Shown here piece by piece: positions 54,793 to 58,910 of a stretch of 64,000 nt of DNA. Positions within the stretch are counted from its first letter, which is position 1. Every line of letters starts with the position of its first letter. Under the pieces are notes generated by a model. That model saw nothing but the letters and a program-made list of their open reading frames with translations, was not told where the DNA came from and ran no database searches. Source of the DNA: Klenkia brasiliensis (GTDB lineage Bacteria > Actinomycetota > Actinomycetes > Mycobacteriales > Geodermatophilaceae); the NCBI RefSeq assembly GCF_900100695.1, contig NZ_FNCF01000001.1, positions 712,060-776,059 of the forward strand. The letters run 5' to 3'. The position numbers and the translations under genes were made by a program.

Positions 54793-56013
54793 TCAGCGGC
54801 GCGGGACGGACTTCCGCCACGCGCTGAAGCTGCTCACCGGGCCGCCGCCGGGCCGCCGCAGCCAGGGCCACGGGTGCACCTCGACCGGGGCCAGGGCCGC
54901 GGCCCGGCGGCGGAAGCCGGGCACGGGGGCGTGGGTGACGGCCAGCGCCCGGCCGGCGAGCTCGTCGACCGGGTCCCCGAGGTGCAGGTGCACCTCGCGG
55001 TCCTCGGCCAGCTCGGCGAGGGTCTCCACCAGGAAGACCAGCCGCTTGGACGCCAGCCGCAGCCGGGTCAGCAGCGGCTCGTCCAGCACGAAGACCACCG
55101 GCAGGTCGGGGTGTGCGGCCAGCGCGGGGTCCGAGGTGCCCAGGGACTCCGCGGTCAGCCAGACCGCCTCCGGCTCGCCGGTGGACTCGACGTCGGCGGG
55201 CCCGGCGCTGACGTCGGGCGACGGGTCGGCGGCCAGCAGCGGCTCGCGGTCCAGCCAGCGGGGAGGCTGGTCGTCGGGCCAGTCCTCGATCGGGCAGTCC
55301 GCGGCCAGCGGGCAGCGCTCGCACAGCCCCGGCGCCCGCTTGCGCACCTGCCAGCGGGAGAACCCGTAGGCCTTGCCGTTGCCGGCGCCGACCGTCCACT
55401 GCCAGCCCACCCGGTTGGCCGCCCGCGAGCCGTCGAGCAGCCGGGCGAACAGCTCGTCCTCGCCCTCGGCCCAGTCGTGCCCGGCGCGGACCGTCCACTG
55501 GGAGGACACCCACATCCGGGTCTGGTTGACCAGCCAGCCGTCGTCGTCGAGCTCGCCGAGCACCGTGTCCAGGCAGAGCATGTCCCGCGGCCAGGGCTCC
55601 TGCCAGCGCGCGTGCGCGCGGGCGGGCTCGGCCCGCAGCGCCGACCGGGTGCGGGTGCCCAGCCGGGCGTAGAGGTGCCGGCTGTACTCCTGCCACAGCA
55701 GCTCGTCGCGGTACTTCGTGCGGTCGCGGGTGGGGGCGTCGGCGACGGCGTCCCACACCTCGGGCAGCTGCAGCAGCCCGTGCCGGATGTAGGGGCTCAT
55801 CGCGCTGGCCCCCCGGCGCGACGCGGGCAGCACCTGGTTGCGCCGGCCGGCGTACCCGGTGACGTCCAGGGTGGCCAGCGCGGCGTCGGCGGCGGCCTGC
55901 CCGCCGCGGAAGCGCCCGGAGGGCGCCACGGCGTCGTCGCGGTGCAGGTGGCCCAGGTGCTCCCCCACCCAGGCGGGGACGGCGTCGACGGCGGGGACGG
56001 GCAGCTGGGGCAC
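54793..56013 (-). CDS. Photolyase/cryptochrome-like protein with swapped domain order and Fe-S motif
   Basis: 406 residues. Residues 30-240 look like the photolyase FAD domain: MSPYIRHGLL (72-81), RDELLWQEYSRHLYAR (102-117), GWLVNQTRMWVSSQW (159-173) and NRVGWQWTVGAGNGKAYG (200-217). Cys147 (MLCL), Cys231, Cys234 and Cys240 fit the four 4Fe-4S ligands of FeS-type bacterial photolyases. The alpha/beta domain that normally comes first is at the end: VWLTAES...DPAL (284-298), VVFVLDEPLL (306-315), RLVFLVETLAEL (324-335) and a closing SSFSAWRK (394-401). So this is one frame in circularly permuted order. Repair or light-sensing are both possible. GTG start. Confidence 0.75.
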   Translation of the reverse strand: MPQLPVPAVDAVPAWVGEHLGHLHRDDAVAPSGRFRGGQAAADAALATLDVTGYAGRRNQVLPASRRGASAMSPYIRHGLLQLPEVWDAVADAPTRDRTKYRDELLWQEYSRHLYARLGTRTRSALRAEPARAHARWQEPWPRDMLCLDTVLGELDDDGWLVNQTRMWVSSQWTVRAGHDWAEGEDELFARLLDGSRAANRVGWQWTVGAGNGKAYGFSRWQVRKRAPGLCERCPLAADCPIEDWPDDQPPRWLDREPLLAADPSPDVSAGPADVESTGEPEAVWLTAESLGTSDPALAAHPDLPVVFVLDEPLLTRLRLASKRLVFLVETLAELAEDREVHLHLGDPVDELAGRALAVTHAPVPGFRRRAAALAPVEVHPWPWLRRPGGGPVSSFSAWRKSVPRR

Positions 56014-56072
56014 GCCCCACCCTGCGGGTTCCCGGCCGGGCGCGCGCGGCGGGCGGCCCCTACGGTCGGGGC

Positions 56073-57053
56073 GTGCACGCGATCACCCAGCAGTCCCCCG
56101 GCGGCCCCGAGACCCTGGTCTGGGCGGAGGTCCCCGACCCGGTCGCCGGCGACGGCGAGGTCGTCCTGGACGTGGTGGCCAGCGCGGTGAACCGCGCCGA
56201 CCTGCTGCAGCGCGAGGGCAACTACCCGGTGCCGCCGGGCGCCAGCCAAGTGCTGGGCCTGGAGTGCAGCGGCGTCGTCCGCGAGGTCGGCCCCGGCGTC
56301 GAGGGGTGGACGGTCGGCGACGAGGTGTGCGCCCTGCTGGCCGGCGGCGGGTACGCCGAGCGGGTCGCCGTCCCCGCGGCGCAGCTGCTGCCCCGGCCGA
56401 CCGGCGTGGAGCTGGCCGCGGCCGCCGCGCTGCCCGAGGTGGTCTGCACGGTGTGGTCCAACGTGTTCATGCAGGCCGGGCTGCAGCGCGGCGAGCTGCT
56501 GCTGGTGCACGGCGGCGGCAGCGGCATCGGCACCATGGCGATCCAGCTGGCCGTGCGGGCCGGGGCCCGGGTCGCCACCACCGCCGGCAGCCCGGAGAAG
56601 CTGGCGTTCTGCCGCGAGCTGGGCGCGGAGATCACCATCAACTACGGAGACGAGGACTTCGTCGAGGTGGTGCAGGCCGCCGGCGGCGCCGACGTGGTGC
56701 TGGACAACATGGGCGCGGCCTACCTGGCCCGCAACGTCGCGGCGCTGGCCCCCGACGGCCGGATCACGGTCATCGGCATGCAGGGCGGGGTGAAGGGCGA
56801 GCTCAACATCGGGGCACTGCTGGCCAAGCGCGGCAGCGTCTACGCCGCCGGGCTGCGCGGGCGACCGGTGGAGGGCCCGCACGGCAAGGCAGCGGTCATC
56901 GCGGCCGTGCGCGAGCACGTGTGGCCCGACGTCGAGGCCGGGCGGGTGCGGCCGGTCGTGCACACCCGGCTGCCGATGGCCCGGGCCGCCGACGGCCACC
57001 GGATCCTGGAGGAGAGCTCGCACACCGGCAAGGTGCTGCTCGTCGCCGACTGA
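56073..57053 (+). CDS. PIG3-type NAD(P)H quinone oxidoreductase
   Basis: 326 residues, zinc-free medium-chain reductase. NRADLLQREGNYPVPPG near 40-56 is the hallmark of the PIG3/TIGR02824 group, and the NADPH-binding loop is HGGGSGIGTMAIQLA near 147-161. It reduces quinones by one electron or 2-enals, and the host gene is often linked to oxidative stress. GTG start 60 bases from the divergent photolyase-like gene, so they may share a promoter region. It is convergent with the aminotransferase, the stops seven bases apart around a small hairpin. Confidence 0.88.
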   Translation: MHAITQQSPGGPETLVWAEVPDPVAGDGEVVLDVVASAVNRADLLQREGNYPVPPGASQVLGLECSGVVREVGPGVEGWTVGDEVCALLAGGGYAERVAVPAAQLLPRPTGVELAAAAALPEVVCTVWSNVFMQAGLQRGELLLVHGGGSGIGTMAIQLAVRAGARVATTAGSPEKLAFCRELGAEITINYGDEDFVEVVQAAGGADVVLDNMGAAYLARNVAALAPDGRITVIGMQGGVKGELNIGALLAKRGSVYAAGLRGRPVEGPHGKAAVIAAVREHVWPDVEAGRVRPVVHTRLPMARAADGHRILEESSHTGKVLLVAD

Positions 57054-57060
57054 GCGGGCC

Positions 57061-58278
57061 TCAGGCCAGCGCGGCCACGCTGTCGATGATGTGGTCGACC
57101 TCCTCGACCGTGTTGTAGTGCATGATGCCCAGTCGCACGGCACCGCCCTGCTCGTTCACGCCGAGGGCGTCGAACAGCTCCCGGGCGTAGTGGTCGCCGT
57201 CCCAGGCGCAGATGGTGCGCCGGGACAGCTCGCGGGCGACCGCCCGCGGGGTCATCCGGGAGACGGTGAAGGACACCGTCGGCGTGCGGTACTGCGGGGA
57301 CCCCAGCACCTGCACGTGGCGCATCGAGCGCAGTGCCCGGTCCAGCCGGTCGAACAGGGCGCCCTCGTAGCGCACCACCGCGGCCATCGAGGTCTGCAGC
57401 CGCTCGCGGCGGGTGCCGGTGGCGTCGGGGCTGAGCGCGGCGAGGTGGTCGACCGCGGCCGCCACCCCCGCGTAGAGCTCGAAGGGCGGCGTGCCGGTCT
57501 CGAACCGGTCGGGCACCCGGTCGGGGGCCGGGGCCAGCTTGTCCGGGGCCAGGGTCTCCAGCAGCGCGGGGTCGGCGACGACGGCGCCCACGTGCGGGCC
57601 GCACCACTTGTAGGCCGACAGGGCCAGCAGGTCGGCGCCGGTGGCGGTGAGGTCGATCAGGCCGTGCGGGGCGGCGTGCGCGCCGTCGACGTAGACCAGC
57701 GCCCCGACCGCGTGCGCCCGGTCGGCGATGGCCCGGATGTCGGGGCGGGTGCCGATGGCGTTGCTGGCCATGGTGACCGCCACCAGGCGGGTGCGGTCGG
57801 TGAGCAGCTCGTCGTACTGCCACTCGGGGAGCTCGCCGGACTCGATGTCCACCTCGGCCCACTTGACCAGCAGGCCGAGCTCCTGGGCCAGCTGGATCCA
57901 GGGCCGGATGTTCGCGTCGTGGTCCAGCCGGCTGACCACCACCTCGTCCCCGGGCCGCCACGTCTTGGCCAGCGTGCGGGCCATCGCGTAGGTCAGCGAC
58001 GTCATGTTCGGGCCCAGGACGACCCCGCGCGGGGTGCCGCCGACCAGGTCGGCGACCGCCGAGCGGGCACCGCCGACCAGCTGCTCGGCCCGGGCGGACG
58101 ACGGGAACACCCCGCCCCGGTTGGCGATCGGCACCCGCATCGCCTGCGACACCGCGCGCAGCACGCTCTCGGGGACCAGGGCGCCGCCGGGGCCGTCGAC
58201 GTGCACCATGCCGTCGGAGAGCCCGGGGAACAGGCCGCGGACGCGGGCGACGTCCAGCGCAGCTCCCCCGGGTCCCAT
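57061..58278 (-). CDS. Class V aminotransferase / cysteine-desulfurase-like protein
   Basis: 405 residues. The PLP lysine is in LSAYKWCGPH near 225, the PLP-ring Asp in YVDGAHAAPHG near 200, and the DHDANIRPW segment near 118 is typical of the TIGR01976 desulfurase-like group. The mobile loop that carries the catalytic cysteine in true desulfurases reads TICAWDGDHYA, without the usual Ser-x-Cys-Ser, so sulfur transfer is doubtful. No Fe-S assembly or thiolation gene is near. GTG or ATG upstream of MGPGG; the start is the first plausible codon. Confidence 0.8.
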   Translation of the reverse strand: MGPGGAALDVARVRGLFPGLSDGMVHVDGPGGALVPESVLRAVSQAMRVPIANRGGVFPSSARAEQLVGGARSAVADLVGGTPRGVVLGPNMTSLTYAMARTLAKTWRPGDEVVVSRLDHDANIRPWIQLAQELGLLVKWAEVDIESGELPEWQYDELLTDRTRLVAVTMASNAIGTRPDIRAIADRAHAVGALVYVDGAHAAPHGLIDLTATGADLLALSAYKWCGPHVGAVVADPALLETLAPDKLAPAPDRVPDRFETGTPPFELYAGVAAAVDHLAALSPDATGTRRERLQTSMAAVVRYEGALFDRLDRALRSMRHVQVLGSPQYRTPTVSFTVSRMTPRAVARELSRRTICAWDGDHYARELFDALGVNEQGGAVRLGIMHYNTVEEVDHIIDSVAALA

Positions 58279-58379
58279 GCCTGCGAACCCTAGACCGGGC
58301 CACGGTGACGGTGAGGGGCCGCTCCGTCACGCGCCGACCCGGCGGGCTGGACGCCGCGCCCGCAGGCAGGATGGGGGGC

Positions 58380-58910
58380 ATGAGTGCACCGGGGAACGAC
58401 GACGAGTCCGCCCGCGGCCGCCAGGTCGTGGTGGTCGGGCCCGACGGCCAGCCGATCGGCGCGCTGCCCACGCCCGAGGGCGGCGAGGACGTCGGCGACC
58501 TCGTCGAGCAGCCGGCCAAGGTCATGCGGATCGGCACCATGATCAAGCAGCTGCTCGAGGAGGTCCGCGCCGCTCCGCTCGACGAGGCCAGCCGCAACCG
58601 GCTGCGCGACATCCACGCCGCCTCCATCCGCGAGCTCGAGGGTGGCCTGTCGGAGGAGCTGCGGGCCGAGCTGGAGCGCATCACGCTGCCGTTCACCGCC
58701 GAGGAGACCCCGAGCGACGCCGAGCTGCGCATCGCCCAGGCCCAGCTGGTGGGCTGGCTGGAGGGCGTGTTCCACGGCATCCAGACCGCGCTGTTCGCCC
58801 AGCAGATGGCCGCGCGGGCGCAGCTGGAGGAGATGCGCCGCAAGGCACTGCCCGGCGGGCAGCCGGGCATGCCGGTGCAGCCGCAGCCCGGCGGCGGCCA
58901 GTACCTCTGA
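58380..58910 (+). CDS. bpa: Bacterial proteasome activator Bpa (PafE)
   Basis: 176 residues, matching Bpa/PafE of mycobacteria in length and layout: an N-terminal polar tail, a four-helix core (about 40-155, including RIGTMIKQLLEEVRAAPLDE), a Pro/Gly-rich linker and the C-terminal GQYL that docks into the 20S proteasome. It forms a dodecameric ring that opens the core particle for ATP-independent degradation. Its presence implies that the organism has a proteasome, although none of the proteasome genes lie in this window. ATG at 58380 with GGGGGGC upstream. Confidence 0.92.
   Translation: MSAPGNDDESARGRQVVVVGPDGQPIGALPTPEGGEDVGDLVEQPAKVMRIGTMIKQLLEEVRAAPLDEASRNRLRDIHAASIRELEGGLSEELRAELERITLPFTAEETPSDAELRIAQAQLVGWLEGVFHGIQTALFAQQMAARAQLEEMRRKALPGGQPGMPVQPQPGGGQYL

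Follow-up and report, generated by a model that had tools for sequence, protein, structure and literature searches.

Does one gene of Klenkia brasiliensis encode a photolyase whose two domains stand in reverse order and, if so, to which photolyase family does it belong and which lesion would it repair? The question arises from a 64,000-nucleotide stretch of contig NZ_FNCF01000001.1 (positions 712,060 to 776,059; hereafter the window, in whose coordinates all positions are given), where the initial annotation read one uninterrupted frame as a functional, circularly permuted and probably Fe-S-containing photolyase or cryptochrome. The open reading frame list and the translation bear out an intact, uninterrupted minus-strand frame of 406 aa, with a GC content of 0.79/0.55/0.995 by codon position. 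A long opposite-strand frame that overlaps it (54874-56190) is a by-product of the ~76% GC content. The features of the gene are as follows.

54793..56013, minus strand: whole gene, inverted (FAD-first) photolyase of putative Fe-S type, 406 aa, GTG start at 56013
55279..56013, minus strand: catalytic FAD domain, aa 1-245 (Pfam FAD_binding_7, PDB profile matches, Foldseek)
55573..55575, minus strand: Cys147, putative [4Fe-4S] ligand 1, invariant (47/47), aligned with an FeS-BCP cysteine
55321..55323, minus strand: Cys231, putative [4Fe-4S] ligand 2, invariant (47/47), aligned with an FeS-BCP cysteine
55312..55314, minus strand: Cys234, putative [4Fe-4S] ligand 3, invariant (47/47), aligned with an FeS-BCP cysteine
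55294..55296, minus strand: Cys240, putative [4Fe-4S] ligand 4, invariant (47/47)
55174..55278, minus strand: linker between the permuted domains, aa 246-280, gappy and variable in family alignment A1
54796..55173, minus strand: shortened photolyase alpha/beta (antenna-type) domain, aa 281-406 (hhalign, swapped profile matches, Deinococcus bridge, Foldseek)

The N-terminal region is a photolyase FAD domain, and its closest relatives of known structure are class I enzymes. A single-sequence Pfam search of the kind proposed for residues 1-245 found FAD_binding_7 at aa 104-215 (E 7.2e-8). The family profile, built from the 47-member alignment A2, matches the class I FAD domains 1tez and 1owl in the PDB at E about 6e-23 and PhrB (4dja) far more weakly, at E 2.8e-4. 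The likeness to FeS photolyases suggested by the initial annotation holds for the cysteines, which lie at homologous positions; the FAD domain is not specially PhrB-like. AlphaFold2 predicts a confident fold for the whole chain (pLDDT 95.1, pTM 0.93), and Foldseek matches the FAD domain of the model to photolyases; because Foldseek keeps sequence order, the alignment of the full model to PDB entries is essentially restricted to this domain.

The class I CPD active-site set is present in the Klenkia protein. In an alignment to E. coli photolyase (E. coli numbering), E274, W277, N341 and M345 correspond to E104, W107, N163 and M167, and N378, W382, W384 and W359 to N200, W204, W206 and W181. Among the 47 aligned family members Met167 is conserved at 90% or more and the other seven residues are invariant. 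Leu126 takes the place of W306, the third triad tryptophan in E. coli, and R278 and D374 are replaced by Gln108 and Ser196, both substitutions being invariant in the family. On these residues we predict an enzyme that repairs CPDs and has a shortened electron-transfer chain.

Four lines of evidence show that the C-terminus is a reduced and permuted photolyase alpha/beta domain, of ~125 residues against the 164 positions of the PF00875 model. Single-sequence Pfam finds no PF00875 match in aa 280-406, nor in any of the 47 aligned members, so profiles were needed to show homology; the initial annotation had named missing N-domain similarity in this region as grounds for refutation, and that similarity, absent from single-sequence Pfam, emerges with profile methods. 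By hhalign, the C-domain profile aligns with class I photolyases of related genomes at their N-terminus only (E about 1e-6), and the controls fail, whether reversed profiles, the FAD part alone or 40 column shuffles (best score 25 versus 46.5). On the genome's own class I photolyase the family profile matches twice and in swapped order, profile positions 292-354 falling on aa 17-81 (i-E 0.003) and positions 12-216 on aa 163-380 (i-E 1.8e-22). The C-domain modelled alone (pLDDT 86.5) has class II photolyases as its top three Foldseek matches in the PDB (probability 0.96-0.99, TM 0.54-0.56), with E-values that are weak for the isolated domain (0.02-0.06). A fold search against viral proteins gave only weak matches to ordinary viral photolyases. 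The domain order first proposed, FAD domain first and alpha/beta domain last, is thereby upheld, and order, homology, conservation, conserved residues and a confident predicted fold are established for this protein.

The fourth line, from Deinococcus relatives, bridges the family C-domain to PF00875 at the level of sequence profiles. One plasmid-borne relative (P0002, 456 aa) is fused, with the FAD domain followed by the alpha/beta domain. In Deinococcus sp. QL22 (plasmid NZ_CP097153.1, L112:1845-3136) the relative is split into two genes, P0003 and P0004, which overlap by 4 bases and of which the second is annotated 'hypothetical protein'. P0004 matches the C-domain of the Klenkia family (profile E 2.3e-18; hhalign E 2.8e-15), both P0004 and P0002 match PF00875 at values that fall below the curated Pfam cut-off (E 2.3e-4 and 7.2e-4), and the Deinococcus C-domain pair aligns with class I N-domains at hhalign E 1.3e-9. 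The split halves parallel Synechococcus phr4/phr5 and suggest either a two-subunit enzyme or a history of fusion or fission.

An inverted Fe-S photolyase is not without precedent. Phr4/Phr5 of marine Synechococcus, encoded in two frames, and Phr6 of Cyanobium, encoded in one, begin with a FAD domain that contains C169, C254, C257 and C263 and end with a DNA photolyase domain, a 'reverse domain order' (PMC9426592, mBio 2022). NewPHL (Emmerich et al. 2020, NAR), as cited in PMC9426592 and PMC13274461, likewise has an inverted topology and acts on CPDs in single-stranded DNA. The arrangement was therefore published before the Klenkia case, and the supposition that it was undescribed and reversed every known photolyase has to be given up. 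A literature search for photolyases described as permuted or as circular permutations returned nothing relevant.

The Klenkia protein has in common with Phr4/Phr5 and Phr6 the N-terminal FAD domain, the four Fe-S-type cysteines and the C-terminal DNA photolyase domain. Cysteines 147, 231, 234 and 240 lie exactly where the initial annotation had placed them, with a spacing of 84/3/6 against 85/3/6 in RS9916 Phr4 (PMC9426592). The first three (C147, C231, C234) align with FeS-BCP type proteins of related genomes (L123-L125), and EndIII_4Fe-2S matches residues 230-240 weakly (E 0.93, below the Pfam cut-off). From this pattern we infer that the four cysteines bind an Fe-S cluster. The proteins also differ: Phr4-Phr6 are cyanobacterial, Phr4/Phr5 occupy two frames whereas the Klenkia gene occupies one, the Klenkia C-terminal domain is too diverged for Pfam, and the (6-4) repair predicted by the authors for Phr4-Phr6 contrasts with the CPD repair predicted by the Klenkia residues.

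The family also very likely coincides with the 'short photolyase-like' proteins (SPLs; Xu 2021), which PMC9649867 and PMC13274461, where they cite that work, present as Fe-S CPD photolyases without an alpha/beta domain and as possible ancestors; the Klenkia family, by contrast, has a reduced alpha/beta domain at its C-terminus. Three genomes of the R. fascians clade, those of Rhodococcoides kroppenstedtii, R. corynebacterioides and Rhodococcus sp. Leaf247, have two PF03441 loci each and no more: one encodes a canonical class I enzyme, the other a member of the Klenkia family. The SPL member tested by Xu et al. in 2021 reportedly came from Rhodococcus fascians, to whose clade Leaf247 probably belongs. 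Given this PF03441 locus content of the clade, the R. fascians SPL, reportedly an enzyme with FAD, an Fe-S cluster and CPD repair activity, would very probably belong to the Klenkia family.

Other photolyase groups fit less well. NewPHL (Dinoroseobacter, Methylobacterium; Phr7) also has an inverted topology, an N-terminal FAD domain and about 400 aa, but it lacks the Fe-S cysteines of which the Klenkia family has four, all invariant, and the NewPHL-like P0005/P0006 form a separate branch (100/100) in the FAD-domain tree; membership is ruled out on both grounds. FeS-BCP (PhrB) (6-4) photolyases have cysteines at homologous positions but a canonical order, a PhrB-like N-domain and a deep separate clade, and the Klenkia protein has neither that order nor a PhrB-type N-domain. 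Class I CPD photolyases provide the nearest FAD domain in the PDB and a homologous alpha/beta domain; they differ in domain order, in lacking Fe-S cysteines and in the greater length of the alpha/beta domain, and the Klenkia protein has no N-terminal alpha/beta domain preceding its FAD domain. Three traits of Fe-S SPLs and Phr4-Phr6 are found, namely a FAD domain placed first with no alpha/beta domain before it, the four conserved cysteines, and, as in Phr5/Phr6, a C-terminal alpha/beta domain.

We consider it highly probable that the Klenkia gene encodes a CPD photolyase of the Fe-S SPL/Phr4-Phr6 family, with the FAD domain first and an alpha/beta domain of ~125 residues last, RfSPL and Phr6 being likened to it by description. 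Two observations count against this reading: phr4/phr5 raised the UV-C survival of E. coli with no significant dependence on light (PMC9426592), and Gln108 and Ser196 replace R278 and D374, FAD- or substrate-contacting residues of class I enzymes. If the C-terminal 125 residues were instead an unrelated Rossmann-like domain capping the FAD domain, there would be no permutation at all; the missing PF00875 matches, the weak Foldseek E-value of the isolated domain (0.02) and the commonness of Rossmann-like folds would fit, but this reading is extremely improbable and largely refuted by the profile match to class I N-termini with its failing decoys, the Deinococcus bridge, the swapped double match on the genome's own class I photolyase and the photolyase identity of all three top structural matches.

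Two further readings keep the permutation and change the activity. For Phr4/Phr5 and Phr6, PMC9426592 proposed (6-4) repair on the strength of the four cysteines that they share with FeS-BCPs. The Fe-S-type cysteines of the Klenkia protein would fit such an inverted (6-4) photolyase, but we regard this as unlikely: the FAD domain resembles class I enzymes much more closely than PhrB, PMC13274461 and PMC9649867 cite SPLs as acting on CPDs, and Met167 stands where E. coli photolyase has its CPD-type Met345 and eukaryotic (6-4) enzymes have His. The presence of a canonical class I photolyase elsewhere in the genome (G000:C3, about 253 kb) leaves room for a light-sensing cryptochrome without repair activity. 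The cryptochrome reading is very improbable, since the substrate-contacting Glu104, Trp107, Asn163, Met167 and Trp206 are conserved, the protein lacks a signalling extension at its C-terminus, no neighbouring gene that it might signal to is conserved, and SPL repair activity is cited in PMC9649867.

We infer the cofactors, activity, substrate and antenna of the CPD photolyase along the following lines. The FAD domain would bind FAD and take a UV-induced cyclobutane pyrimidine dimer into a pocket lined by Glu104, Trp107, Asn163 and Met167; by analogy with NewPHL, the substrate may be mainly CPD in single-stranded DNA. Blue light would excite FADH-, from which an electron would pass to the dimer and split it, and the flavin would be photoreduced via Trp204 and Trp181 (in E. 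coli, W382 and W359). Cys147, Cys231, Cys234 and Cys240 would hold a [4Fe-4S] cluster that is probably structural, and the C-terminal alpha/beta domain may pack against the FAD domain in roughly the canonical way and so close off the pocket of the flavin. As FO synthase (FbiC) is encoded in the genome, 8-HDF would be available as a possible antenna of the C-terminal domain.

Selection and distribution both indicate a maintained gene. Within Klenkia, median dN/dS is 0.20 for the FAD domain and 0.27 for the C-domain, so both domains are maintained by purifying selection; the linker has the highest value of the three regions (0.39). The gene being intact and conserved, a functional permuted enzyme, as first proposed, is very probable. 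A scan of the genome collection found at least 269 related stretches. The 80 best come mostly from Actinomycetota (including Klenkia, Rhodococcoides, Williamsia, Nocardioides, Kineococcus, Acidimicrobiia, Thermoleophilia and Nitriliruptoria) and include one contig in a Myxococcota MAG. The closest relatives are in Klenkia (88-92% identity), where seven congeners have a full-length copy; the gene is present in 26/397 genomes drawn across the phylum, being general in Klenkia and scattered through the rest of the family and order. All retrieved relatives that span the full length have the same FAD to alpha/beta order, and together with the at least 269 related stretches this disposes of the assembly artefact that the initial annotation had allowed for. 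No gene neighbour was found to be conserved beyond Klenkia, which suggests an enzyme that works by itself.

Several loci deserve separate mention. Near the photolyase lie genes for a class-V aminotransferase (Aminotran_5, cysteine-desulfurase superfamily; 57061-58278, minus strand) and a bacterial proteasome activator (BPA; 58305-58910, plus strand), whose linkage to it is not conserved outside Klenkia. The copy in the Myxococcota-labelled MAG (L056, JANQFK010000046.1) is 60% identical, lies on a 175-kb contig and reflects either horizontal transfer or a binning error. Two relatives are interrupted, one by a frame change near residue 200 (L132, G068:C52:24634-25810) and one by a TAG (L012, G050:C1:144050-145261), through sequencing error or decay. 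Two MAGs titled 'Bifidobacterium breve' (L078, L106) also carry the gene, but they cluster with relatives from environmental actinobacteria, and their species labels look wrong. The NewPHL-like genes on alphaproteobacterial plasmids (L113:593-3134, L114:1914-4516) both adjoin a gene of the AarF/ABC1/UbiB kinase family.

In the FAD-domain tree the single groups are strongly supported (SPL 100/99, class I 100/99, FeS-BCP 100/100, with NewPHL-like as above). All inverted proteins fall on one side of a branch whose support is only 78/77, and a clade of SPL and Deinococcus alone is not rejected (p-AU 0.46); a single origin of the inversion across photolyases is possible on this tree. For two NewPHL-like proteins, comparison of the C-domain with the class I N-domain detected no match. 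The FeS-BCP proteins L123 (aa 34-97) and L124 (aa 44-104) have in common an N-terminal stretch 'WLFADQLG...DQPVLLV', which aligns weakly (i-E 0.016 and 0.1) with 'WLTAESLG...LPVVFVLD' of the C-domain and could bear on the source lineage of the swapped domain.

These results extend inverted Fe-S photolyases to Klenkia and, as the scan of the collection shows, to hundreds of loci, most of them actinobacterial. They also demonstrate, at the level of profiles and structure, a photolyase alpha/beta domain at the C-terminus, which bears on an ancestry that has been argued from its supposed absence: a domain that is present, shrunken and permuted weakens the case for SPLs as ancestors. We lean towards the view that the Fe-S SPL family carries a permuted, shrunken alpha/beta domain and that SPLs are domain-swapped derivatives, perhaps by way of a split two-gene stage such as that of Deinococcus QL22 or Synechococcus phr4/phr5, rather than primitive one-domain photolyases. 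The results also bear on lesion type, the residues predicting CPD repair and not the (6-4) repair proposed for Phr4 and Phr6. A photolyase with swapped domains has been kept by selection, and its two halves can be separate genes.
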